Origin: Akkermansia muciniphila
Lineage (GTDB): Bacteria > Verrucomicrobiota > Verrucomicrobiia > Verrucomicrobiales > Akkermansiaceae
Length of the DNA: 64,000 nt
Reading direction: 5' to 3'
Assembly: GCA_945874895.1 (NCBI GenBank)
Contig: CAMCIC010000003.1
Coordinates: 1-64,000, forward strand
Shown: piece after piece, positions 15,713 to 37,163 of the stretch
How positions within the stretch are numbered: position 1 is the stretch's first letter
How the letters are laid out: each line of letters begins with the position of its first letter
Made by a program: the position numbers and the translations under genes
The notes under the pieces: model-generated
The model's input: only the letters and a program-made list of their open reading frames with translations
The model's database searches: none
What the model was told of the DNA's origin: nothing

Positions 15713-17173
15713 ATGACTCTCGACCAACAACAAATCCAATCCGTGGTGGAAAGCGTGCTGTCACGCTTGCAGGCAGCGAACGTGACTGCTGCGCCCGCTG
15801 CAACAAAAGAGGGCTGCGGCTGTGGCTGCCCCGGCGCAGATGGCGACTACGGCGTTTTCACCTGTGTGGATAAGGCGGCAGATGCCGCACATCACGCTCA
15901 CCTCAAGCTCAAAAAAGCAGGCATCGGTGCCCGTGCCAAGGTCATTGAAATCGTCAAAACGCTCGCGGTTGCCAACGCCGAGCCTTGGGGCAAGTTTGAG
16001 ATGGCGGAAACGAAGATCGGCCGCGTAGATCACAAGATCGGTAAACTGCTCATTACGAAAAACGTTCCTGGTGTCGAATACCTGCGTCCTGATGCGATGA
16101 GCGGTGATGGCGGTATCATGATGGAGGAGTTCGCTCCCTTCGGCGTGATCGGTGCCATTTTGCCCGTGACGCACTCGGTGCCGACACTGACAGGCAACGT
16201 GATCAGCATGGTTGCGGCGGGCAATGCCATTGTTTTTAATCCTCACCCCGGTGGCGCGCGCAGTGCGGCGATGGCCGTGCGTGAATACAACAAGGCGATC
16301 GAACGTGAGCTGGGCATTTCCCATCTCATCACCTGCATCGAGCAACCGACGCTCGAGTCCTTCAATCTCATTTGCAAAAACGAGCAGATTCCCTTGCTCG
16401 CTATTACCGGTGGTCCTGCTGTTGTCAGTGCGGCGATGAAATCCGGTAAGCGCGCCATCTGCGCCGGTCCAGGCAATCCGACTGTGGTTGTCGATGACTC
16501 CGCTGATCTCGCCAAAGCCGCTCGCAGTGTGATCGAGGGTGGAGGTTTTGACAACAACTTGCTCTGCATCGGTGAAAAAGCCGTTTTTGTTGTCGGTTCT
16601 GTATTCAATCGCTTCATGGAGGAGCTGGAGAAAGCGGGAGCTGCCCGCCTCAATGCGGTGCAAATCGACTCTCTCACCAAGGCCGCCTTCACCTATAAGG
16701 AAACGGATGGTGGATGCTCGCATGCCGCGGTCAATCGCGATCTCATCGGGGCTGATCCCACCGTGCTTGCCCGTCATGCGGGAGCTAACGTTTCTGCCAG
16801 CGCGCCTATTCTGTTTGGCGAAACCAGCGCAGATCACCCCTTCGTGCAAGAGGAGCAAATGATGCCTATGATTCCCATCGTGGCTTGCCCCGATTTTTCC
16901 ACGGCGGTGAAACATGCGAAGCAGGCCGAGCACAACTACCGCCACTCGGCGATGATCCATACTCGCAACGTCGATCACATGACCGCAATGGCGAAGGAAA
17001 TGGATACCACGATTTTTGTGAAAAATGGCCCGAGCACCGCTGGTCTCGGTCTCGGTGGAGAAGGCTATCTTTCTTACTCGATCGCCACGACCACCGGCGA
17101 AGGCATTACCACACCGAAGACCTTCACCCGCGTGCGCCGTTGTGTGCTGGTGGACAACCTTCACATCATCTAA
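15713..17173 (+). CDS. CoA-acylating aldehyde dehydrogenase, PduP-like
   Basis: Oxidises the aldehyde released by the aldolase to acyl-CoA with NAD+ inside the compartment. The 486-residue protein has a predicted N-terminal encapsulation helix (QQIQSVVESVLSRLQAA, about 5-21). An unusual cysteine-rich linker CGCGCPG follows at about 35-41, then the ALDH fold. The coenzyme-binding core includes PVTHSVPTLTGN, and the active-site cysteine lies in FDNNLLCIGEK (about residue 284). The C-terminal glycine-rich GLGLGGEGYLSYSIATTTGEG segment is typical of PduP/EutE. The next gene starts 15 bases later. Confidence 0.94.
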   Translation: MTLDQQQIQSVVESVLSRLQAANVTAAPAATKEGCGCGCPGADGDYGVFTCVDKAADAAHHAHLKLKKAGIGARAKVIEIVKTLAVANAEPWGKFEMAETKIGRVDHKIGKLLITKNVPGVEYLRPDAMSGDGGIMMEEFAPFGVIGAILPVTHSVPTLTGNVISMVAAGNAIVFNPHPGGARSAAMAVREYNKAIERELGISHLITCIEQPTLESFNLICKNEQIPLLAITGGPAVVSAAMKSGKRAICAGPGNPTVVVDDSADLAKAARSVIEGGGFDNNLLCIGEKAVFVVGSVFNRFMEELEKAGAARLNAVQIDSLTKAAFTYKETDGGCSHAAVNRDLIGADPTVLARHAGANVSASAPILFGETSADHPFVQEEQMMPMIPIVACPDFSTAVKHAKQAEHNYRHSAMIHTRNVDHMTAMAKEMDTTIFVKNGPSTAGLGLGGEGYLSYSIATTTGEGITTPKTFTRVRRCVLVDNLHII

Positions 17174-24288: not shown

Positions 24289-24978
24289 ATGAAATATTTG
24301 TCACCCAGTCAATTAATTCTCTTTGTGACTGCATCTTGCTTGCCGATATCAGTATATTGTCAGAATGTCGCAAATGATACTGAAGATGGAAGATATACTA
24401 AAATAGTGCTTCAATATAGGGCAGATAAAAAGCTTGAAGATGCTGCAGCTGCCCTTAAAGATATGCCGCGTCGTGATGTGGTTTCAGAGTTAATTGACAG
24501 CGCGGGAAAATACGCGAGTATTGGGGGCCTTGAAGGCGCTCCCTTTGTTCCATTGATCAAAACAGCTCAAAACCTAGATGTTAATTTTTTCAAAGAAGAA
24601 TTTCTCAAATCTGCAAAGAAATTGATAGGAGAGAAAAAATACGAGGTGCTTTTAAAGTGCGGATATCTTTACATGCATGACTTGAAATTTGCAGACTTAT
24701 CATTAGGTAACGATTTGCTGACGGATTTTATAGGGTTAACACATGAGAGAATGCAAGAAAGATTATCACTAATTAACTCAAAGCATACGTATCGTATCTA
24801 CATTGTCGAAGAAATTAGAAGGTTAACTTCACTTGAGGAAAATAACCATTATATTTTTATTTTAGAAGGTATAAGAGCGCACTATTTGAATTCTGATGAA
24901 TTTGATGAAAGAACTGCTGAAGAAGTAGTTGATAAGTGCAACAGGGCTTTAGCTCATGTTAGGAAATTGAGAGGGTGA
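24289..24978 (+). CDS. Secreted hypothetical protein, AT-rich gene
   Basis: I do not recognise a family. The 229-residue product has a signal peptide (about 1-24, ending SVYCQ) and a mostly helical, charged body without repeats or obvious catalytic motifs. Base composition is clearly more AT-rich than the genes to its left, as in the operon to its right. Its 3' end overlaps by 25 bases the 3' end of the convergent small gene, so antisense pairing of the two mRNA tails is possible. Confidence 0.65.
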   Translation: MKYLSPSQLILFVTASCLPISVYCQNVANDTEDGRYTKIVLQYRADKKLEDAAAALKDMPRRDVVSELIDSAGKYASIGGLEGAPFVPLIKTAQNLDVNFFKEEFLKSAKKLIGEKKYEVLLKCGYLYMHDLKFADLSLGNDLLTDFIGLTHERMQERLSLINSKHTYRIYIVEEIRRLTSLEENNHYIFILEGIRAHYLNSDEFDERTAEEVVDKCNRALAHVRKLRG

Positions 24979-25205
24979 ATGGGGTCAGGAGCTGCGGTGA
25001 TGATGTCAAGTAGCTTATTGTCAACAAATATACCGCGAATAAATATTATTTCACCTAGCTTAGTTCCAAGATGGTCGAAACCTGTTTTTTCGTAATTTTC
25101 ACGCGAGTAATTGTTAAGTCGCATTTTATTATTTTTGCCAGAAAAAATAAAAAAAGCATTTAATAGCAAAGAAATAATCAACGTTACATAAAGGATTATT
25201 TTCAT
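24954..25205 (-). CDS. Small membrane-anchored orphan at the end of the CotH operon
   Basis: An 83-residue protein from the ATG at 25205, with one N-terminal hydrophobic helix (IILYVTLIISLLLNAFFIF, about 3-21) and a basic then mixed soluble part. The frame continues upstream to 25235, but the ATG at 25205 places the helix at the N-terminus. It follows the porin stop by 44 bases on the same strand and is likely the last gene of that operon. No known family is recognised. Confidence 0.55.
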   Translation of the reverse strand: MKIILYVTLIISLLLNAFFIFSGKNNKMRLNNYSRENYEKTGFDHLGTKLGEIIFIRGIFVDNKLLDIITAAPDPIHPLNFLT

Positions 25206-25249
25206 TTGTAGATTAAATTTAACAAACACCACCATGAAAAAAAGTCATC

Positions 25250-26497
25250 TCAAAAAAAAGTGCGGACTGCGAGTAGGTAAGTCGTTCCTGTAAAGTCGGA
25301 TGTTCGCGCGCTCATTTTGTCGTAAGATACGCCGCCCATGACTTTGAAATGATCGCCGCAGATATGCCAGTTCATACCTAGGTAAAATGAGTGATTTTCA
25401 TCACCATAACCTCCATCTAGATCGAGACTAGGCGTGTTATGAAGTGCGCCGATGTAACGATTGTTGATGCGTAGACCTTCCATTTCATCGGCACGGGCAT
25501 ATTGGTAACGTGCTACACACTGAAGACGTTTTTTTATGATCCAATACCATGGCATCACAATCGAACCATAGAAATCTCCTTGCCGCATGGCTGTAAGATT
25601 GCCGTTATCCGCTCCGCCGTTGTCACCATGTATCAAATTCACCATCAGTCCCCAATCTTTTTTTTCGTAAACGGCTGATAGTGATGTCGCTTGCACATAG
25701 CCAAGGAAATCATCTGAGCCAGATGGATTATTTTGTACATGATCCACCCGTGTTAGGAGACGTTTGGAGATCTGCCAGGCAAGACTTCCATAAGCGACTT
25801 CACCATCGTTCCAGCTACCGATGAATGCAGAGTCATCTTCGCCACTAAAGATACCAACTGTGCCGGTCCAATCGTTTTTGCCCAATTCCATGGTGAGACC
25901 TGTAGGACGTGGATTATTGCCACCTAGCTCGTCAGCAAGATTTGAGCGTTCAATCGTCAGAATTCGATTGGATGATTCATGTACCTCTTCCGTGATATTA
26001 AATTTCATTCGACCATAATGCAATTTAATGTCATCTAAGGCTTCTGTTCCGATGGCTTTGCCGAGATTAAAGCTAAGGATCGCGCTATCAAAAGTATCAT
26101 ATCCCCACTGTAACTTCCTATTGGTTGAATTACGGAATCGCCTGTCGTCCACAAGATTGACACCCAATTCTATGTCAAAATAAGTAAGAAAGTCGATTTC
26201 TGTTTCGATACGAAAACGTCGATTTTCTTCAAAATGGTTCTTGAATGAATTCCCGCGGACATCTTCACCGTGGACACTTCCCATTTGGTAGTGAAATCGA
26301 CCACCGATGGCTATACTGTCAATCCAAGGATTGTTTTTGTTTTTGTAGAGCTGTCCTGAATTGTTGGAAATCAATTGGCACCAGTCACGGGGGTAATCTG
26401 ATTTTTGTTGAACAGGAGTTTTTGTCGCTTTTTTTGATTCAGCAGAAACGAGAGAAATACAAGGGAGCGCGATCAGCCAAAAAATAGGGAATTTCAT
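25250..26497 (-). CDS. Outer-membrane porin, OprO/OprP-like
   Basis: A 415-residue outer-membrane beta-barrel with a signal peptide (about 1-19), a short Lys/Thr linker and a barrel of alternating strands. Examples are FRIETEIDFLTYFDIELGVN, WGLMVNLIHGDNG and CVARYQYARADEMEGL. The last residue is Phe, the usual outer-membrane insertion signal. The overall pattern resembles phosphate/polyphosphate-selective porins. The assignment is by pattern, so anion selectivity is not proven. It starts 17 bases after the DUF4956 gene in the CotH/VTC operon, where such a porin would fit a phosphate role. Confidence 0.75.
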   Translation of the reverse strand: MKFPIFWLIALPCISLVSAESKKATKTPVQQKSDYPRDWCQLISNNSGQLYKNKNNPWIDSIAIGGRFHYQMGSVHGEDVRGNSFKNHFEENRRFRIETEIDFLTYFDIELGVNLVDDRRFRNSTNRKLQWGYDTFDSAILSFNLGKAIGTEALDDIKLHYGRMKFNITEEVHESSNRILTIERSNLADELGGNNPRPTGLTMELGKNDWTGTVGIFSGEDDSAFIGSWNDGEVAYGSLAWQISKRLLTRVDHVQNNPSGSDDFLGYVQATSLSAVYEKKDWGLMVNLIHGDNGGADNGNLTAMRQGDFYGSIVMPWYWIIKKRLQCVARYQYARADEMEGLRINNRYIGALHNTPSLDLDGGYGDENHSFYLGMNWHICGDHFKVMGGVSYDKMSARTSDFTGTTYLLAVRTFF

Positions 26498-26514
26498 GAA
26501 AATAGTTAGCCGAG

Positions 26515-27210
26515 TTATAGATCCAGTTCTTGTCCTGTGGGAGTGAGGACTACGCGGTTGTTTCCAGAAACATGGTGGAGGGCTTCGAGCAGCAGGTGGG
26601 TGCTGGCGCCGTCTTTCAGTTGTAAGCCATAACGAAGTTCGGTCATCATGCCCGCCTGGGCAGAAGTGACGCTGACGAGTTGTGTGTGCTCGGTGAATTC
26701 CGCGAAGACTGGCTTTAGTAAAGTCTCAAAATCCATCTCGCAGGTCATTCGTAAGCTGAGTAAGTGTGAAGCGCGACGTGGTGCAAAAGCATCCGTTTTG
26801 GAAAGAATGAGAATTGCTGTGCCGACGATGACTGTGATGATGATCGCCATGGGGTATTGCCTAGCACCGACGACCATTCCTATGGCCATTGCAAAGAAGA
26901 CGAAGGCAAGATCACGTGACTGCCCGAGATTGCGGCGAAAGCGAATTACAGAAAACGCGGCGAACATACCGAATGCAATAGCGCCGTTTCCACTAACAAC
27001 GATGATCAGGATCGTAGTGACCACACCGATCATGATCAAGGTTTGGACGTAGTCTTGGGAATAGCGTGTGCCTTTGTAGGTTTTCCGATAGAGGACAGCG
27101 ATGGCGAGATTGAGAGTAATGCTGAGGATCATTGCTAAAATGATTTCAGCGGGTGCGGGGGGATTGGCTATCGTTGCATGGTTCGATTGGAATATGTCTT
27201 CGAGTGTCAT
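26515..27210 (-). CDS. DUF4956 membrane protein
   Basis: A 231-residue inner-membrane protein with four or five helices in the first 135 residues. The DUF4956-type core contains GMFAAFSVIRFRRNLGQSRD (about 81-100). A soluble C-terminal domain (about 145-231) resembles an ACT-like or ferredoxin-like fold. Its function is not established. DUF4956 genes repeatedly sit beside VTC-domain and CotH genes. Here its ATG overlaps the VTC stop codon (ATGA), indicating translational coupling and likely physical partnership. Confidence 0.85.
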   Translation of the reverse strand: MTLEDIFQSNHATIANPPAPAEIILAMILSITLNLAIAVLYRKTYKGTRYSQDYVQTLIMIGVVTTILIIVVSGNGAIAFGMFAAFSVIRFRRNLGQSRDLAFVFFAMAIGMVVGARQYPMAIIITVIVGTAILILSKTDAFAPRRASHLLSLRMTCEMDFETLLKPVFAEFTEHTQLVSVTSAQAGMMTELRYGLQLKDGASTHLLLEALHHVSGNNRVVLTPTGQELDL

Positions 27211-27959
27211 TTTGGCTGGGATTCGAGGTTGCTGGAATTTGTTTTTAGTTTAGTAAGTTCGATCGATTTGGCGTATTTGCTAAAACTGCATGGAGTGAGG
27301 TTGAAATCACCGATCAGATTGCGAAACCAGTAAGGTACGGGGCCTATCGTTTTGACTTCCATGATGGACGCGCCCGGGTCCATGAGGTTGAGATCAAAGT
27401 CATCGCAGTTTGGCAGCATAGGTTTCAAATGGAATCGACAACGAAGGTCGAGATCGAAGGTGATACGGATGGTGCCATCCGCGCCGCTATCATAGGCGTA
27501 GCGATGGTAACGAATCTGAACGACGGGTCGATAATTATGATTGTCAATCAGATCAGCAATTTCAGCGATGATCCGGTTATCTGTTCTTGTCAGTAATTCC
27601 AAATCGCTAGGGATTTTCCCACGAGAAAAAAAGATTAGATCTTTCAGTTCACAATTCACTCTTCGTTTTACTGTGGCACCATCTAGCTTGTGCTTGATTT
27701 CGATGAAGGCTGCTGGAGGAATGCTGCCATCTTTACAGCTATAGAGACGACCACGCAACCGGCGGCGAGTGGGCGAACCCAGTTGTTTTTGCCAATATGA
27801 CTTTAGATCGCATGAGTCAAAATATTCAGATATGACGGTGTAGCCATCTCGTGCGTGAATGTCGGCAGTTAGATGTTTTGCCACTTTTTCTCGAATGAAA
27901 GACTCCTGTCCTGCCCTCAGGATAAACTTGAATTCGCGACGATTTTCACTAGCTAGCAT
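27207..27959 (-). CDS. VTC-domain polyphosphate polymerase-like protein
   Basis: A 250-residue triphosphate-tunnel-type protein with the VTC catalytic domain. Charged motifs run in the expected order: NRREFKFIL (about 5-13), EYFDS, RRRLRGRLY (about 65-73), FIEIKHK (about 85-91), VKRRVN, IRYHRYAY (about 149-156), RITFDLDLR and MEVKTIGPVPYW (about 202-213). In yeast Vtc4 this fold polymerises ATP gamma-phosphate into polyphosphate. No membrane helices are visible; the DUF4956 partner may supply the membrane part. The CotH gene ends 37 bases upstream. Confidence 0.88.
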   Translation of the reverse strand: MLASENRREFKFILRAGQESFIREKVAKHLTADIHARDGYTVISEYFDSCDLKSYWQKQLGSPTRRRLRGRLYSCKDGSIPPAAFIEIKHKLDGATVKRRVNCELKDLIFFSRGKIPSDLELLTRTDNRIIAEIADLIDNHNYRPVVQIRYHRYAYDSGADGTIRITFDLDLRCRFHLKPMLPNCDDFDLNLMDPGASIMEVKTIGPVPYWFRNLIGDFNLTPCSFSKYAKSIELTKLKTNSSNLESQPK

Positions 27960-27996
27960 GAGGTTAATCTACGGCTCGATCTTCTTGGTATGGGCG

Positions 27997-30900
27997 TCAA
28001 TTGTTAGCTTTATGTCTAAGGATCATAGACGAAGTCTTGAAGCTCCCTTTGGGACCGATGGTAGGGACTAAAATTGTACCAAGCCCTGTGATATCACCCC
28101 AAGAATCTCCTTGAAGCAGCAAGCCACTCGCTGAGGCTGTTCCTGCGGGGATGTTGCTAGAGAAGCCTGAAGGAATTCGGAAGGTTCCTCTAAAGCTACC
28201 ATCGGCTTTGGATACTCGACCCACCCATGGAATCAAAGGCACATCGGAAGGAGCAAAAGAGAGAAGTCCGAATTTGTCGTCGATGCTCAATTCTGTGGTC
28301 AGTGAGGCAATGGTGGATTGTGGTTCAGAATTATTCAAGCCGCCGCCAGCAATCGTAAGTTGCGATTGGCGTTGATTTTTCCATCCTAGTGAAGATCCCA
28401 AGGCCGTAGCAGAGTCTGGTATGGTCCATTTTGCACTGCCGATTGTGACGGGTATGGCAGGAAAACCGCTCGGGTAGCTGAGTGTTTTTCCATCAGCTTC
28501 TTTGCGCCACCATACATTACTATGGAGAAGTGTTGCGTTCGTGATGGGTTGATTGAGATCACTGAGAGTGATGATGCCACCGATGAAAGAGTTCTTATTT
28601 GCGTAGGGCTGCATCCACAAAACAGCTTGACCAGTAGGGGATACTCGTAAGGATGTTGTTACGTTAGTACCATCTCCTAAAAGGCCCACGAAGGTGCCGA
28701 TACCTTGATTGCTAACTCTGCCCCTTAACCAACCGAAACCGGCAGGAATATGATGGCCATCTTGTGTTCCTGGGTTGATAATGATGCCGTATGCAATCGT
28801 TGCAGATGGTGCTTCTGCCGGGCGGGCATGGCGAAATCCTCGTAGATTACCGTCGTTGTAGCTACCCATTTGATTGAGTAAAGTCCCATCAATGGCGATA
28901 TTGATGGCTACGGGTGGCATACCGAGGTTTGCAGCAAAATTTGCAGTGATCGGTGCGACAGGATTGCCTTCTGCAAGTAAGAAGCCACCTCTTGCCCCTC
29001 TTGCTCTGGATGATCCCTTCATAGACAGACTAGCTGACCATTGGTTCGGGGATGTGATATTGAGACGTAGTGCGCCAGTTGGTAATGAATTGGAATCTTC
29101 TAAAATAAAATCGTAGCTGCCGATAAGTGAAGTAGGGAATTCTAATATAGAGATAGGAAAGGGAATGGATCGAATAATTTTTTTCCCTTGAAGAACCTGA
29201 ACAATGAATTGATAACTGCGGGGGCGGCCAGTGAGAGTCCCAGAAAGACGCATCGTGACAGGGTCAAACTTTAATCCATAGGGTATTGTGCCAGATACTC
29301 TGATTCCTTCACCCTGATTTGTAAGTCGTTTCAAATCAAACATGACGGAATTTCCAATCCGCAATGGGAAAGGATTGCCGAGGAAGCAAAAGGAGAATGG
29401 ATCACTGGTAATGCTGTTGCCAATCAGGGCGATGTCGATTGGTTTTTCAATCGTTTCCTGCGAAGTGATTTTAAGCGCAGCATTGATGGAACCGAATGAA
29501 GTAGGGTTGAGTGTTACCGTAAAACTAGTGGTAGCTCCTGGACTCAAAGTTGTAGTCCTGAGAGTTGATAGAATGTAATCAGATCGATGAACACCAAGAA
29601 GATTGACCTGTAATCCAGTGAGGTCATTCGTATCAACATTTCGAAGGGTAATCGTTTTGGTTACGAAAGTTTCGATCTCTGTAGCGCCAAAATCAAGGTG
29701 GGATGATTGGTCGATGAGTATCGTGTTTTCTGGGTGTTCCACCTGTAACTTGGGTGGAGTTGGTTGAATTTGATAAGTTGATTCTGCTAAAGCACTCCAT
29801 ATAGGGCCGTTTTTTGCGCGGAAGCGGATCGTGCGCTTGCCTGTGTTGCTTAATGTAACCGGAGTGGAAGTGAATGATCTTATTGCGTCTAACGAGCAGT
29901 TCATGCTGAGATCGCTGCTGGATTCGTTCGCTTGATGAATTTCTATGGCAAGTGTGTTTCTGCCGTTAACCAATAACGAAGCAGGTAGGTTTACAGATTC
30001 GATCGTGTCCTCGATCGCTGTTCCCGTGTAGAAGTCATGAGCGACGTTGTCAGGAAGGTTTCCTGCTACACGAGTGCCGTTCAGGTAGAGAGAGTAACCA
30101 TCATCGTATTTAATTGTAGCTAGAAGTGAGGTAATGTTTCCTACATCAGAGACATCAAACTGCCGGCGAAAATAGCAAGTAGCAGGTCGTTGAATGCCAG
30201 CAGTCGAGGGATTGATGTCATAAACCGGTATCTCGGTCGCTTCATCGCCATCGCCGTAACCGGATTCCGCATTACCGATGTGCCATGAGGCGTCATCAAA
30301 ATTCTGCAATCGCCACGAGTTACCGAGATTTTCTCCAGTGGCTAGGAATTTCCATTCGCTTGCCGAAAGGGGGAGCAGAGTTTCACTTGTGGTGTTGCTC
30401 TTGTAAGTGAGTGCGCCCGATCGTAATGCTCCACCTACCGCTCGTGGATCCGAGCCATCTGGCATGTAATATATGGTTGATTCGTTAGGGGCGGTGATGG
30501 CGATTTCCGTTCCCTGCCTTACATTGCCTCCGCTTGGAATCAGAACAGGAGCATTGAGGCTAGGATACAGCCCTCTGGCGCGTAGTTGCGATAAAACTAC
30601 GGGATGGCGTGGCGCAATGTAGTGGAGAATCGCATTCTTGGCGTTCACCCAGTCTTCCTTTGTCCTAGGCTCGCTCGTTTTTGAGCTTCCCCAGCGAGCG
30701 CTTTCCGCAATGATAGCTTGATCGACGATTGATGAAAATCGATTGACACGGTTGCTCCAGGCCGATGGAGTTAGCGCGCCGTCATTGAATAAATGTTTGT
30801 GAATACGGTCAGCCCAGCGCATCCGATATTCTTGATTTGCGCTGAGATCTTGATGTAAGAAAAATGGATTTGAGTAGACAAACTGCCGTTCGCTCGCGCT

Positions 30901-33843
30901 GTTGAATGGACCGATACGGTCTTCATTTACATCAAACATGCTGTGCTCGAAGTCGTGCACAAAAAAGCGAAATCCTTGCCGTGCATCTTTGTCGCGTGAT
31001 CGGCACCCAAACCAATTATTTCCTCTTTCATTTCCAAGAAATGCTGAAACACAACCATCAAAATTACCCGTCCAGAATGTGACTAAAAGGTAATCGATAA
31101 GGTTATCAGGATCTAACAGAACGGGATCCGCTGTAGGAGTTACACCATTGGACGACAGTCCTTGCATGCGAAAATAGTTTGTATTGGTAGGGGAGGCGCG
31201 ATGAGCTTTTCCTTTATTCCATAAATCTTGCCAGGCCATTAAATTTCCATCCGTGGCGCCTACAGTGTAGCCGTTGTCGCTTTCGGATTTAACGACATCG
31301 TAATCTTCTTTTTTACCACCGAGGTAGGTTTCGGCGAATGCCGCATCTTTGCGTTCATCGAAGTTATGCAAGCCCCAATATTGTCCATTCAGGTAGAGGT
31401 GAAAATAACGCACATGAGAGCCAGGTTGTCCCATGTCGATCTGAGCCTGCCGTGATGATTCTTCACGTAAAAAAGTATTTTGATCTCCGCCTTCGAAGGA
31501 CCATGAGTAATTCTGTGCCGTGCGTAGGTCGATCTTATCAAATTCACTAGCCGCCTCATTTCCGAAAATAGGGTATTGTAACTTTGATGCGCCGTATTCT
31601 TGTCGAAAAAATAATCGTAATGCGTGTTTGGGGTTATCCTCGCTGCGAGAATATCCACCGCGTATTCTCAGTCCGGCATTGATTTGAAACTGACCGCTGC
31701 CGTTAGGACTCTCTCCTGTTGGCGGATTGATCCACTCCACAGATACTGGTCGTTCCCATGCGAAACCACGTTGGTAAGGATTTGAGTAGATTCCCTGCGA
31801 ACCTTCCATATTGAACAGGTTTGGCAGATCGGTTGTTAGGCAGACGGACGGTAAGGAATGGAGTGCGGATATTACCTGTTCTTGGCCACCGATATTGGGA
31901 TTTGTGTGATTCACGATGCGTGGATCCATGCCAAACTTGAGTATTTGGTTCGTTCCACTACTTTGTGGCCAGCCAGCTGGGGTCGCACCGTTGGCTGATT
32001 GCGTGATGATATCGTCAGTAAAAAGATACGTCTGCGTAATCACATTAGAGGGTTTCCAACCATCAAGCGTTGCGACGGCGCGAAGCACTGTCGTGCTAGA
32101 AATCGTGAATGGAGTCGTGTAAATAGAACCGTTCGTCTCGGTCGGAGTTGAACCATCCGTGGTATAGCGAATTACGGCATCAACCGTGGGGGTTGTGAGA
32201 GCGATTTGCACAGGCGTTTTGTAAAATCCGCGATCCGTGCTGCATATCACATCTGCGACAAAACCGAATGAACTGGGGGAGCCATTGATCCAACCTGGAG
32301 TGGCTAACTCGTCGGCGTATATCACGGGTTCTGTCGTGGAGTTCAAGCGGCCGATGATGATCTCAGGGAGGACGAGGAAGCTGGTATCTGAAATGGATGA
32401 TTTCATTCCATGGATGGCCATAAGATTTGTGCCATGGATCAAGTTAGGAATTTCCGCAGTGAGATTGAATCCGCTCCGTTGAATGGTTTCACGAATGGGT
32501 CGTGATGAAGTCGCTAAGGAGTTCCATGCTGGCTTGAGGGGGGCATTGCTTGCCGCTACTTGCGTTCCATTAAGCCATGCGGTAAAGCCATCGCTGTAGC
32601 GGATGACAAGTGAACATGACGTTGCATTTCCCTGATCGATGAATTCAAATGGTTGACGAATGTAAGCACCACGACTGGCTGACATCTCACTTGCCAAATC
32701 CGTAGCAATGAATTCACTAGCGCCTTGTGGGATGGTTGTAGTCGCCAAGCCGCCGTTCTCTACATCGCCCACTAATCGAAATGCTGATGCATCGAAGGAG
32801 GTTAGCTTGCCGGGTGCCGCGAAAAATTCCACACAGTCGCCGCCACCACCTTCAAACATTATGACCTGAAAGGTGTGGGTTCCGGCTGAGAGAGTTATGG
32901 TGCCGAATCGATTTTCTGGGCCATGAAACGAATCATCCCGCATAACTTGCGTTTTGTTGATTATGATTTGCCCACCGTCGTCGCTATTCAATCCGAAGGT
33001 GTATGCTCCTGCATTAGGAATAGTGAGGGTGCCAGTGGCAACAATGGCATAGTTTTCGCCGCCGCCACCTGGTGGGTTTTCGTTGAGTCCATAATTTCCG
33101 TCGCTGCCTTCACCTAACAGATTTAACGTTTTCATCACCGCTGTTGTCGAGCTAAGCACGAGAGGATCGCTCGCGGGGAGAGATATCAAGTTTAACGCAT
33201 CGTTTAAGCCTTCGATACCGCCATTTTTAGAAACTTGTCGAACAGTCATCCCTGGTGTGGCAATACCGAAACCGAAACCGCTTACGCCATTCGTCCAGGA
33301 ACTGTCATCAAAGCTGGGTTGATTCCATGTAGGCGAAAGCGCTGAAGCACCGGTTGGCATGGCATATTTGCCATTCGCGCCATGCGGGAGTAGCGTGGTC
33401 GATGAAAAACGAGCTCCGAATGAGGCATCGGTCCCTTGCGCTGGGAACTGGGGCGAAAATTCCTGTTGTATGGTGACACCATCGGGACGCACAAGTGCCA
33501 GATATTCCCCGGCCTTGGAAAGGGCGAAATTCGTATGCAAGGGCGCGCCTACTACACGACGGTCTTTTGACGATGCCCACACCAGAAGAAATTCGCCCGG
33601 TGCCAGTGTGACACTCGGAAACTTCCACTGTGTCATATTTGCAGTGCGATCCGTAAGAGCCCAATCCAACAAATTGATCGTAGTTGATGTGGGGTTGTGG
33701 ATTTCGATCCAGTCGGAAAAATTTCCATCTTCGTCGGCAATGGTAGATTTGTTATCTGCCATAAATTCGCTAATCACAGGATTGGCGAATACGCATGTGG
33801 GCATGATGAAAAAAAGAAGAAAAATCAATAGTGCGTTCAACAT
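27997..33843 (-). CDS. Giant secreted CotH-kinase protein with lamin-tail and carbohydrate-binding-like domains
   Basis: The 1948-residue protein has a signal peptide (1-20) and a lamin-tail domain (about 21-115, with NPVISEFMADNKS and SDWIEIHNPT). Beta-sandwich/PA14-like modules follow (about 160-490), then a chitobiase-C-like repeat (about 535-607, IRYTTDGSTPT). The CotH kinase region (about 690-1085) carries YWGLHNFDERKDAAF and FFVHDFEHSMFD, probable active-site/metal segments. Further beta domains (1090-1500) and a long C-terminal region complete it. Known CotH proteins are atypical kinases of spore-coat proteins. This one would act at the cell surface on an unknown target. It is first in the operon with VTC, DUF4956 and porin. 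Confidence 0.9.
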   Translation of the reverse strand: MLNALLIFLLFFIMPTCVFANPVISEFMADNKSTIADEDGNFSDWIEIHNPTSTTINLLDWALTDRTANMTQWKFPSVTLAPGEFLLVWASSKDRRVVGAPLHTNFALSKAGEYLALVRPDGVTIQQEFSPQFPAQGTDASFGARFSSTTLLPHGANGKYAMPTGASALSPTWNQPSFDDSSWTNGVSGFGFGIATPGMTVRQVSKNGGIEGLNDALNLISLPASDPLVLSSTTAVMKTLNLLGEGSDGNYGLNENPPGGGGENYAIVATGTLTIPNAGAYTFGLNSDDGGQIIINKTQVMRDDSFHGPENRFGTITLSAGTHTFQVIMFEGGGGDCVEFFAAPGKLTSFDASAFRLVGDVENGGLATTTIPQGASEFIATDLASEMSASRGAYIRQPFEFIDQGNATSCSLVIRYSDGFTAWLNGTQVAASNAPLKPAWNSLATSSRPIRETIQRSGFNLTAEIPNLIHGTNLMAIHGMKSSISDTSFLVLPEIIIGRLNSTTEPVIYADELATPGWINGSPSSFGFVADVICSTDRGFYKTPVQIALTTPTVDAVIRYTTDGSTPTETNGSIYTTPFTISSTTVLRAVATLDGWKPSNVITQTYLFTDDIITQSANGATPAGWPQSSGTNQILKFGMDPRIVNHTNPNIGGQEQVISALHSLPSVCLTTDLPNLFNMEGSQGIYSNPYQRGFAWERPVSVEWINPPTGESPNGSGQFQINAGLRIRGGYSRSEDNPKHALRLFFRQEYGASKLQYPIFGNEAASEFDKIDLRTAQNYSWSFEGGDQNTFLREESSRQAQIDMGQPGSHVRYFHLYLNGQYWGLHNFDERKDAAFAETYLGGKKEDYDVVKSESDNGYTVGATDGNLMAWQDLWNKGKAHRASPTNTNYFRMQGLSSNGVTPTADPVLLDPDNLIDYLLVTFWTGNFDGCVSAFLGNERGNNWFGCRSRDKDARQGFRFFVHDFEHSMFDVNEDRIGPFNSASERQFVYSNPFFLHQDLSANQEYRMRWADRIHKHLFNDGALTPSAWSNRVNRFSSIVDQAIIAESARWGSSKTSEPRTKEDWVNAKNAILHYIAPRHPVVLSQLRARGLYPSLNAPVLIPSGGNVRQGTEIAITAPNESTIYYMPDGSDPRAVGGALRSGALTYKSNTTSETLLPLSASEWKFLATGENLGNSWRLQNFDDASWHIGNAESGYGDGDEATEIPVYDINPSTAGIQRPATCYFRRQFDVSDVGNITSLLATIKYDDGYSLYLNGTRVAGNLPDNVAHDFYTGTAIEDTIESVNLPASLLVNGRNTLAIEIHQANESSSDLSMNCSLDAIRSFTSTPVTLSNTGKRTIRFRAKNGPIWSALAESTYQIQPTPPKLQVEHPENTILIDQSSHLDFGATEIETFVTKTITLRNVDTNDLTGLQVNLLGVHRSDYILSTLRTTTLSPGATTSFTVTLNPTSFGSINAALKITSQETIEKPIDIALIGNSITSDPFSFCFLGNPFPLRIGNSVMFDLKRLTNQGEGIRVSGTIPYGLKFDPVTMRLSGTLTGRPRSYQFIVQVLQGKKIIRSIPFPISILEFPTSLIGSYDFILEDSNSLPTGALRLNITSPNQWSASLSMKGSSRARGARGGFLLAEGNPVAPITANFAANLGMPPVAINIAIDGTLLNQMGSYNDGNLRGFRHARPAEAPSATIAYGIIINPGTQDGHHIPAGFGWLRGRVSNQGIGTFVGLLGDGTNVTTSLRVSPTGQAVLWMQPYANKNSFIGGIITLSDLNQPITNATLLHSNVWWRKEADGKTLSYPSGFPAIPVTIGSAKWTIPDSATALGSSLGWKNQRQSQLTIAGGGLNNSEPQSTIASLTTELSIDDKFGLLSFAPSDVPLIPWVGRVSKADGSFRGTFRIPSGFSSNIPAGTASASGLLLQGDSWGDITGLGTILVPTIGPKGSFKTSSMILRHKANN

Positions 33844-34160: not shown

Positions 34161-34164
34161 AGAG

Positions 34165-34249
34165 CGGAGAGGGTGGGATTCGAACCCACGGATGGTTTCC
34201 CATCTTCGGTTTTCAAGACCGACGCGATCGACCACTCTGCCACCTCTCC
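34165..34249 (-). tRNA. tRNA-Ser (TGA)
   Basis: The complement reads acceptor GGAGAGG paired with CCTCTCC, D arm GGCAGAGTGGTCGATCGC, anticodon stem CGGTC... with loop containing TGA, a long class II variable arm (GATGGGAAACCATC), T arm GTGGG-TTCGAAT-CCCAC, and discriminator G. CCA is not encoded. Confidence 0.95.
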
Positions 34250-34785: not shown

Positions 34786-35592
34786 ATGGAGACACATGAA
34801 AATCAACCTGCGCGGCGTCCGCGTCTCACCTTTCTCGGCACTGGTACGTCCACCGGTGTTCCGGTGATTGGTTGCTCTTGTGCAGTATGCCTCTCCATCG
34901 ATCCGCGCAATCGACGACTGCGTTCTTCGGTCTTGTTGGAGAGCGAGGAAACGAACCTGTTGGTCGATGCTGGTCCCGATCTGCGGCAACAGGCGCTGCG
35001 TGCAGGAATCAAAAAGGTGGACGCGGTTCTCTACACTCACGGACACATGGATCATGTGGTTGGTTTTGATGAATTGCGCGCGTTTTGTTGGCAACGTGAT
35101 ACTCCCTTGCCGATGTATGCCAATCCGGGATGCATGGATATTTTGCGCACGATGTTTGCCTGGGCCTTTGCCGAGACCAACATCTATCGTGGATACATCA
35201 AGCCAGGTCCAGTGGTGGTGGAGGGACCGTTTGTGATTGGAGCATGGAAGATTTCTCCTCTGCCTGTGATGCACGGTGCGGTCGAGACCAATGGCTATCT
35301 CTTTGAGCGTGAGGGTGCCAAATCGTTGGCGTATATCTCAGATGTGAAGGCCATTCCCGATGCCACCATGGCGATGATTCGAGAGGTGGACTTGCTCATC
35401 CTGGATGCGCTGCACTACCGCCCGCACCCCACTCACATGCATATCGAGGAATCTCTATCCGTGATCGCCGACCTGAATCCTCGCGAGGCTTATCTCATAC
35501 ACTGTTCGCATGAGGTCGATCATGCGACACTTGAAAATGAACTGCCTGCTCACGTTCGTGTGGCTTTCGATACGCTTTCGTTAGAATTATGA
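34786..35592 (+). CDS. MBL-fold metallohydrolase, PhnP-like
   Basis: The 268-residue product from the ATG at 34786 has FLGTGTSTGVPVIGCSCAVC at the N-terminus. Its CxCxxC stretch is like the structural zinc site of PhnP. The metal-binding THGHMDHVVGFDE motif lies at about 83-95, with later His ligands in VMHGAVETNGY and in HCSHEVDHATLE. PhnP cleaves cyclic phosphodiesters; relatives have other substrates. The stop codon overlaps the next gene's start (ATGA), so the two are translationally coupled. The longer frame to 34696 adds an unconvincing hydrophobic stretch. Confidence 0.85.
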   Translation: METHENQPARRPRLTFLGTGTSTGVPVIGCSCAVCLSIDPRNRRLRSSVLLESEETNLLVDAGPDLRQQALRAGIKKVDAVLYTHGHMDHVVGFDELRAFCWQRDTPLPMYANPGCMDILRTMFAWAFAETNIYRGYIKPGPVVVEGPFVIGAWKISPLPVMHGAVETNGYLFEREGAKSLAYISDVKAIPDATMAMIREVDLLILDALHYRPHPTHMHIEESLSVIADLNPREAYLIHCSHEVDHATLENELPAHVRVAFDTLSLEL

Positions 35593-37163
35593 AAACGACT
35601 TTGTTCCGACTCTTGTTCTGCCTGTGTGGCCTTCTTTCTGCGGCGCCCGCACCGCTATCTCCAGAGCGAGTGGTCGTGCTTTACAACTCAGCCCTGCCTG
35701 ACTCGCAAGAACTGGCGAAAGCCTACCAAATAGCGCGCGGTATTCCGTTAGCAAATCTGATCGGTCTGCCCATGCCGGACCGCGAGGAAATCACGCGTGA
35801 GGAATTTGAGACTTCGATCCGCGTCCCGCTGCGTGCTGAGTTTGACAAACGTGCGTGGTGGAAAATGGGGCGGGCTGATGCCCATACCACAGTAGCCGTG
35901 GAAAATCGCATGCAGGTGATCGTCTCGATGCGCGGTGTGCCATTGAAGATCGCGCGCGTTGCTGATTCGATCCAAGCTGCTGAAGTCAAGCCCACGGCGG
36001 AGAGTGCGGCACCGAAAAATCCGATGCTGATCGCGAACGAGGCATCGGTTGACTCAGAGTTGGCGATTCTCAGTTGGAGTGGTCAGTCCATTGCTGGTCC
36101 TTTGCAGAATGCTTATTTCCAGTCGAACAAGGGCTTCTCTGAAGCTGCACTTCCTTTTTTGATGCTCGTTGGGCGCATCGATGGCCCATCGCAGGTCATT
36201 TGCCAGCGCATGATTGCTGATGCCGTGGCTGTGGAAAAAACGGGTTTATGGGGTCGGGCTTACTGCGATTTGGCTCAGTTCTATCCTCAAGGGGAAACGT
36301 GGATCCGTTCCTCTGCCTTGCAGTGTTCTGATGCCGGCATGCCCGTGGTGGTGCATCCATGGAAAGAAGTTTTTCCCAAACACTACCCGATGACGGAGGC
36401 AGCCGTCTATTTCGGATGGTATGAGTGGAATGTCTGCGGACCCTTCGTGAAGCCCGGCTTTCAGTTGCGTCGTGGTGCGGTGGCCGTGCATTTGCACAGC
36501 TTCAGTGCTTCCACCATCCGCAGTGAGACGGCCAACTGGTGTGGTCCGCTGCTAGCCCGTGGCGCTGCCGTTACGCTCGGCAATGTCTACGAGCCATATC
36601 TCGGCTCCTCCCATCATTTTGACGAATTGCAAAAGCGTTTGCTGGAGGGTTACACATGGATCGAAGCTGCCTATGCAGCGATGCCCGTGCTCTCATGGCA
36701 GGGAGTGGTGCTGGGTGATCCACTTTATCGGCCCTTCCTGCATCTTGATGGAAGCGGTGAAAAACTGCCTGCCGATCGTCCCTACCGAGCGCTGCGAGTG
36801 GCGAAACTTTTGCACGACGGGCAGGACAGCAAAATGCTCGCGGAAATCGAACGCATCGGTCGGGAAAAAGGCAACGCTGTGATGTTAGAGTCATTGGGCT
36901 TGCTTCACTTGCAGCGCAAGCAGGAGGCACTGGCCTTGCGGTTCATTCAGGAGGCAAAGCCCTTGTATCAGGATGCCGCTGACCGCTTGCGATGTGACAT
37001 GCATGTGATGGGTATGGATCGAGATGCGGGTCGCATCGGCCTAGCGGTCAAAAACGTGCGAGATGCCGAGATTCTTTATGCGGACCTTCCGGAAGTGCAA
37101 GCAGTGCGTTCGTGGCGTGCGATTCTCGATCCTCCGCCACCGGTGCAGCCACCGAAAAAATGA
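35589..37163 (+). CDS. TIGR03790 family secreted protein
   Basis: A 524-residue exported protein with a signal peptide (about 1-19, ending SAAPA). The TIGR03790-type opening is VVVLYNSALPDSQELAKAYQIARGIP (split here by function: strand, then helix), continued by LANLIGLPMPDREEITREEF. The family is found mainly in planctomycetes, verrucomicrobia and some proteobacteria, and its activity is unknown. Tetratricopeptide-like helices occupy the last 120 residues (SMLAEIERIG, LGLLHLQRKQEAL). Four-base overlap with the metallohydrolase gene suggests the two act together or need matched amounts. Confidence 0.82.
   Translation: MKTTLFRLLFCLCGLLSAAPAPLSPERVVVLYNSALPDSQELAKAYQIARGIPLANLIGLPMPDREEITREEFETSIRVPLRAEFDKRAWWKMGRADAHTTVAVENRMQVIVSMRGVPLKIARVADSIQAAEVKPTAESAAPKNPMLIANEASVDSELAILSWSGQSIAGPLQNAYFQSNKGFSEAALPFLMLVGRIDGPSQVICQRMIADAVAVEKTGLWGRAYCDLAQFYPQGETWIRSSALQCSDAGMPVVVHPWKEVFPKHYPMTEAAVYFGWYEWNVCGPFVKPGFQLRRGAVAVHLHSFSASTIRSETANWCGPLLARGAAVTLGNVYEPYLGSSHHFDELQKRLLEGYTWIEAAYAAMPVLSWQGVVLGDPLYRPFLHLDGSGEKLPADRPYRALRVAKLLHDGQDSKMLAEIERIGREKGNAVMLESLGLLHLQRKQEALALRFIQEAKPLYQDAADRLRCDMHVMGMDRDAGRIGLAVKNVRDAEILYADLPEVQAVRSWRAILDPPPPVQPPKK

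Follow-up and report, generated by a model that had tools for sequence, protein, structure and literature searches.

The membrane part of the yeast VTC complex takes a polyphosphate chain across a membrane. For bacteria, we know of no established route by which polyphosphate reaches the outside of the cell. The available portion of a review on the distribution of VTC proteins deals with eukaryotes (PMC10657179). In Gram-positive bacteria, a triplet of genes encoding CotH, VTC and DUF4956 proteins has already been published for Pel loci. According to the accessible part of a Streptococcus intermedius study, its authors' analyses find no such synteny outside the Pel locus (PMC12345266), and excerpts of another report describe a Clostridium perfringens locus with VTC genes, genes named tubulin-like, and CotH (PMC2879425). 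Here we analyze a stretch of 64,000 nucleotides from Akkermansia muciniphila (contig CAMCIC010000003.1; hereafter, the window), in which the same three families lie in one operon with a porin, and compare it with related loci.

What is new here is the gene that follows DUF4956. We propose that these loci encode an envelope-spanning polyphosphate module, in which the polymer would be made by VTC, cross the inner membrane via DUF4956 and leave through an adaptor and channel or through a phosphate porin. We hold this proposal to be about evenly balanced between right and wrong. The family identities, the intact tunnel residues of VTC, the pairing of VTC with DUF4956 and the switching between envelope partners at a single genomic position were computed directly. 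Among the papers listed by our searches on polyphosphate export or secretion, on bacterial VTC proteins and on the combination in Verrucomicrobiota, we saw none that reports this arrangement. The operons offer a testable candidate for exporting polyphosphate from diderm cells and, for DUF4956, a possible role; the available passages naming the family assign it none.

A conserved gene pair with alternating envelope partners

VTC and DUF4956 each occur in 57 of 288 genomes of the phylum Verrucomicrobiota, and 56 genomes carry both (hypergeometric probability 1e-57, uncorrected for relatedness). Of 14 named control genomes, 3 match one family and the same 3 match the other. When 66 DUF4956 genes were taken from 68 fetched neighbourhoods and the window, VTC adjoined DUF4956 in 61 of them. 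These counts leave out DUF4956 open reading frames (ORFs) of 400 bases or less (a split one, L081) and the VTC-only contigs L079, L110 and L128. Genes were picked by longest open frame, and genes in GC-rich (guanine- and cytosine-rich) loci were missed. Of the five loci scored as lacking VTC, L117 does contain a VTC frame, but an over-long DUF4956 frame runs across it; in L112 the VTC gene is 2.6 kb distant, and in the genome of L129 it is on a separate contig. Long frames that might be read as VTC-DUF4956 fusions occur in L084, L117 and L118, but they overlap other frames and seem to be upstream extensions. The pairing is more than chance, and an initial annotation of the window, which had joined the two genes in one system, is upheld as to this core. 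In one genome (G157; L106:1954-17034), two divergent VTC-DUF4956-CotH copies lie about 6 kb apart.

Judging from its sequence, the window VTC protein is likely to be a polyphosphate polymerase. We built a profile from 33 VTC proteins, and it finds yeast Vtc4 (3g3q) at 2.1e-25. Apart from the start methionine, residues E9, K11, R69, R71, Y73, E87, K89, K98, P145, R153, D169, E201, K203 and K228 are invariant in all 33 rows, and D48, R100, Y151 and R165 are conserved at 90% or more. The conserved positions align with the Vtc4 stretches TTKYW, RLRWYG, FVERK, VKAR, YNR, RVRISLD, LEVK and FSKF, which we take to hold tunnel residues K200, R264, R266, K281, R361, R373, E426 and K458. E9 corresponds to T in Vtc4. 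The basic tunnel positions (K11, R69, R71, K89, K98, R153, R165, K203 and K228) and the metal-site residue E201 are kept, such that the tunnel residues on which the initial annotation had made its reading depend are intact.

In the 61 VTC-linked loci, the gene after DUF4956 encodes an EmrA/HlyD-type periplasmic adaptor in 31, CotH in 17 (one gene away from DUF4956 in 3 of these) and a porin of the window's family in 7; in the remaining 6 it is none of these. An outer-membrane channel of OprM/TolC type was found too in 19 of the 31 adaptor loci. Within 1.17 Mb, all hits of the adaptor model (35) and of the porin model (7), and 20 of the 21 hits of the channel model, fall directly downstream of DUF4956, which is a weak control because the three models were trained on the same loci. 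Independent support for these identities comes from Pfam and PDB matches. The Pfam family HlyD_3 matches 20 of 21 adaptors scanned (35 model hits in all), and the adaptor profile finds EmrA (4tko) at 1.3e-28 and HlyD (5c22) at 2.7e-11. Similarly, 27 of 30 channels scanned match the Pfam family OEP (70 full-length hits in all), and the channel profile finds SilC, OprJ, OprM, CusC and TolC.

A search for a pump covered 54 of the 56 other same-strand neighbours that qualified in the 31 adaptor loci (L098:3-1355 is among those left out). Among the 25 commonest of the 79 Pfam families found, none occurs in more than 2 of the 54 neighbours and none is an MFS or RND family; MacB_PCD and ABC_tran have one match each. 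As far as our gene picking reaches, DUF4956 is therefore the single inner-membrane candidate that recurs. One of the 54 neighbours carries a CHAD domain (PF05235), which we take to be a polyphosphate-binding domain.

Partner types cluster on the DUF4956 tree, where the four groups need 9 changes versus a shuffled mean of 28.9. The window DUF4956 sits in a clade of nine rows (starred in the tree), of which seven are porin-type. The other two are L068 and L127, the latter being a second DUF4956 copy with no VTC. Conservation of the porin with VTC and DUF4956, as originally supposed, thus holds for seven of nine rows in the window's clade. Between positions 16001 and 45000 of the window, neither the adaptor nor the channel model has a hit, and the parts of a tripartite exporter are found in relatives only.

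We also examined 80 named loci (the best 80 of 114). They were retrieved using a DUF4956 alignment of the adaptor type, which biases them to that type, and at least 16 appear to overlap contigs of the 288-genome set. VTC is present in 79, an adaptor in 76, adaptor and channel together in 54 (49 of the 69 with room) and CotH within reach in 12, in some directly after the channel. Where their group is titled, the named loci found with relatives' DUF4956 are nearly all from Verrucomicrobia, Kiritimatiellae, Lentisphaerae and PVC bins. The full line VTC-DUF4956-adaptor-channel-CotH occurs at L144, L152, L154, L170, L174, L176 and L197, with CotH at most 140 bases past the channel; these loci are good candidates for experiments. 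On a Hymenobacter plasmid, DUF4956 is followed by TolC (5.3e-41), with no VTC in the stretch. The gene before that DUF4956 resembles an adaptor by eye; Pfam and solved structures return nothing for it, profile comparison gives a probability of 21.8, and we retain it as a lead only.

An AlphaFold2 (AF2) model of the window porin, built from 7 sequences, has 16 strands and a predicted local distance difference test score (pLDDT) of 69.7. In a second structural comparison, OprO (4rjw; Z 28.5, root-mean-square deviation 3.0 over 317) and OprP (2o4v; Z 28.5, root-mean-square deviation 3.4 over 321) are nearest, and the next family after OprO/OprP (Z 28.4-28.5) is PorB, at Z 25.1. The porin sequence profile has no PDB match, and the best stretch of the PF07396 match covers only residues 63-221. 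The seven operon porins score 606-707 bits in the phylum, being the training rows of the model, and the next six porin loci (341-462 bits) hold paralogues elsewhere. Five of these six loci adjoin phosphate (Pst) transporter genes. L216, L217, L219 and L220 have a PstS-family match (above the curated cut-off in two of the four) and a PstC match (above it in all four), with a PstA match in L219 and L220; L215 has frames 73% and 64% identical to PstS and PstC of L217; and L218 shows neither PstS nor PstC by the same search. A tree separates the operon porins from seven paralogues as sister groups, with support of 100/100. Given this tree and the Pst-linked paralogues, the VTC-DUF4956 operon probably recruited its porin from a phosphate porin family. 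The OprO/P-like character first assigned to the porin therefore agrees with its nearest folds, as modeled, and with the company its paralogues keep.

The AF2 model of DUF4956 (41 sequences; pLDDT 88.4) has five membrane-type helices at residues 20-44, 52-72, 76-90, 98-115 and 119-139 and a C-terminal ACT/ferredoxin-like domain at about 145-226. The third helix is short and ends at R90-F91-R92, which, like Y41, is invariant in the 41-row alignment. Fold searches return ACT-type and similar ferredoxin-like domains, including the MgtC C-terminal domain (2lqj), and a Pfam scan of the window protein found no MgtC family. DUF2490 is presumably a family of outer-membrane barrels. Excerpts of a Bacteroides thetaiotaomicron transcriptome report list a DUF4956 gene together with a DUF2490 gene (PMC10434189). 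On pSymA of Sinorhizobium meliloti (L212:4272-6642), DUF4956 lies with no VTC near, 64 bases after a gene for a caspase-domain (Peptidase_C14) protein, possibly a different use of DUF4956.

Polyphosphate export and competing explanations

According to our proposal, VTC would use ATP to build polyphosphate on the cytoplasmic side of the inner membrane, and DUF4956 would pass the polymer through that membrane, much as yeast VTC does with its membrane part. Roughly half of the Verrucomicrobiota loci would then bridge the periplasm and the outer membrane with an EmrA-like adaptor, in many cases joined by an OprM/TolC-like channel. Within the clade that holds the window, the OprO/OprP-like porin would fill the adaptor slot, allowing polyphosphate or released phosphate to cross the outer membrane, and secreted CotH may act on or with the phosphate pool outside. 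The identity of the polymer, its direction of flow, DUF4956 as a channel and the role of CotH are what we infer. Because the A. muciniphila genome also has a PPK1 match, VTC need not serve ordinary cytosolic polyphosphate. The initial annotation had pictured simple exchange through the porin. An adaptor, often with a channel, fills the porin's place in 31 of 61 loci, which points to export instead.

Several points weigh against this proposal. None of the proteins has, as far as we know, been assayed. Our fold searches returned no solved structure for the membrane part of DUF4956, so that a channel function for it can only be inferred. DUF4956 occurs with no VTC near at L126 and L127, and with none within about 6 kb in the Hymenobacter (L210) and Sinorhizobium (L212) loci; it may therefore carry something else there. 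None of the three partners is in the next place for 10 of 66 DUF4956 genes, and no outer-membrane channel is near by our model in 12 of the 31 adaptor loci, of which at least one is at a contig end. The close relative L068 (G215) has VTC and DUF4956 but no porin. By Foldseek E-value, PorB (3wi5) ranks just above OprP (2.9e-14 vs 5.2e-14) as a match to the porin model. Finally, porins are passive and OprO/OprP serve uptake; the window porin could thus run inward.

An inward flow across the outer membrane is the basis of one alternative, in which the porin imports scavenged phosphate and VTC-DUF4956 stores it as polyphosphate in the periplasm. Such storage would fit the OprO/OprP fold, the Pst uptake genes beside porin paralogues in five of six loci and the availability of PPK1 for a cytosolic polymer. 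However, adaptor-channel pairs of the EmrA/HlyD and OprM/TolC families are outward devices, and it is an adaptor that takes the same slot in 31 of 61 VTC-linked loci, with an efflux-type channel in 19. We regard scavenging and storage as unlikely. The same outward devices could export a different polymer, if CotH, VTC and DUF4956 tune or modify an exopolysaccharide that leaves by the adaptor and channel. Excerpts of published work report that in streptococci, clostridia and bifidobacteria the triplet adjoins pel (PMC7112168) and describe S. intermedius CotH and DUF4956-type mutants with changed Pel levels and reduced aggregation (PMC12345266), and on a Planococcus plasmid we find VTC-DUF4956-CotH a few genes from a glycosyltransferase. 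Yet PelG (PF16933) has 0 matches in the A. muciniphila genome, so a pel locus is rejected there as far as PelG tells. Moreover, PelG has only 1 match in 58 VTC/DUF4956 genomes, on a different contig, and no glycosyltransferase or polysaccharide synthase is among the 25 commonest families of the adaptor-locus neighbours. An accessory role in polysaccharide synthesis is accordingly quite unlikely in our estimation.

A further explanation dispenses with transport: DUF4956 could be an MgtC-like regulator of phosphate or ATP homeostasis with an ACT sensor, and VTC a phosphate sink that it controls, with no polymer crossing a membrane. Its ACT-type C-terminal domain, with MgtC 2lqj among the fold matches, agrees with this, as does the MgtC domain described by the authors of the S. 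intermedius study in its accessible part (PMC12345266). Nevertheless, many other ACT-type domains score equal to or above that of MgtC, and homeostasis leaves unexplained why 38 of 61 VTC-linked loci have an adaptor or a porin as the next gene. We consider it very improbable.

As regards CotH, which was originally placed in the same system, linkage by genome is evident, but linkage by position is variable. CotH occurs in 54 of 57 genomes with VTC versus 21 of 231 without it, again uncorrected for relatedness. In the fetched neighbourhoods from which CotH positions were taken, a same-strand CotH is within reach in only 27 of 66 DUF4956 loci, and our model places none at the other six porin-type loci. 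The window CotH domain has D929 and D964, which we take to be catalytic and metal-site aspartates; the position of D964 is D in 98% of 49 aligned CotH domains, and E966 stands where 78% have D. A phmmer search of solved structures with the CotH domain gave one chance-level row. ATP is scarce outside the cell, where secreted CotH kinases work. It is conceivable, as a long shot, that polyphosphate exported by VTC-DUF4956 through an adaptor and channel or a phosphate porin is the phosphate donor with which CotH phosphorylates surface proteins or glycans outside the cell; if so, the exported polymer would power a phosphorylation system beyond the cytoplasm.

Operon layout and surroundings

The features of the window discussed here are listed in Table 1. 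The five same-strand genes and the gaps between them (37, -4, 17 and 44 bases) agree exactly with the ORF coordinates, and Pfam matches were obtained for all four families initially named: CotH with a lamin-tail domain (LTD), VTC, DUF4956 and porin. The fifth gene, an 83-residue ORF that had been counted as part of the system, begins at an internal ATG of a listed 93-residue frame that starts at 25235. It matches nothing in Pfam or NCBIfam and has no match in the 59 other family genomes searched, and we rejected it as a conserved operon member. The single polyphosphate system first proposed therefore keeps its core, tunnel residues and porin and gains export-type envelope partners in relatives, but loses the 83-residue protein, and the position of CotH is not fixed.

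Table 1. Features in and around the operon, in window coordinates
Feature	Coordinates	Strand	Basis
CotH-type kinase-like protein, predicted secreted, 1948 residues	27997..33843	-	Pfam
CotH domain of this protein	30604-31671		PF08757 2.1e-21 (Pfam)
Domains of this protein, in residues: LTD 21-126, PA14 256-334, CHB_HEX_C_1/Fn3_assoc about 538-606, CotH 725-1080, ASH-type 1381-1467
VTC-domain polyphosphate polymerase candidate, 250 residues	27207..27959	-	PF09359 5.7e-38
DUF4956 membrane protein, 231 residues	26515..27210	-	PF16316 9.7e-18
OprO/OprP-like 16-strand porin, 415 residues	25250..26497	-	Porin_O_P PF07396 1.6e-8 and AF2 model
Small ORF, 83 residues, hydrophobic start, probably outside the conserved system	24954..25205	-	no family match
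tRNA-Ser (tga), just upstream of the CotH gene	34164-34249	-
524-residue protein, signal-like start	35589-37163	+	no Pfam match
229-residue protein, signal-like start	24289-24978	+	no Pfam match

The genome from which the window derives (2.92 Mb, 26 contigs, 97% complete) has a single VTC match and a single CotH match. Promoter and terminator scans were at chance level (14 vs 16.7 and 10 vs 10.3, respectively). GC content is 0.39-0.51 across the operon versus 0.53-0.56 beyond the tRNA-Ser gene, and the same-genus genome G268 has no VTC, DUF4956 or CotH match. This GC step at the tRNA, together with the absence of the three families from G268, suggests that the operon block was gained or lost recently. 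RmuC was likewise not found in G268. The end of the 229-residue protein overlaps that of the 83-residue ORF, on the opposite strand, by 25 bases.

Comparison with known systems

The window porin shares with OprO/OprP, which are porins for phosphate and polyphosphate, a 16-strand barrel, the best Z scores and paralogues beside phosphate genes. However, it is only 14% identical to them over the aligned part, and it is encoded with a polymerase and not with an uptake system. Compared with EmrAB-TolC and HlyD-type tripartite exporters, relatives of the window operon are similar in that DUF4956 is directly followed by an EmrA-like adaptor and a channel of the OprM family; unlike those exporters, their operons have no recurrent pump gene, DUF4956 being in its place, and the window has a porin instead of the adaptor and channel.

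The yeast VTC complex (Vtc4 with Vtc1-3) contains a VTC catalytic domain with the same tunnel positions as the window protein and likewise has a membrane partner that could translocate the polymer. In contrast, the 250-residue window protein is a VTC domain only, with no SPX or fused membrane domain, and its membrane partner, DUF4956, is of a different family from the membrane part of yeast VTC. The available text on Gram-positive pel accessory genes (PMC7112168, PMC12345266) describes the same three families adjoining as in the window. Those loci differ in that the window genome lacks a PelG match, its host is diderm and CotH comes first. They differ also in what has been added to the triplet: a porin in the window, and an adaptor and channel in its relatives.

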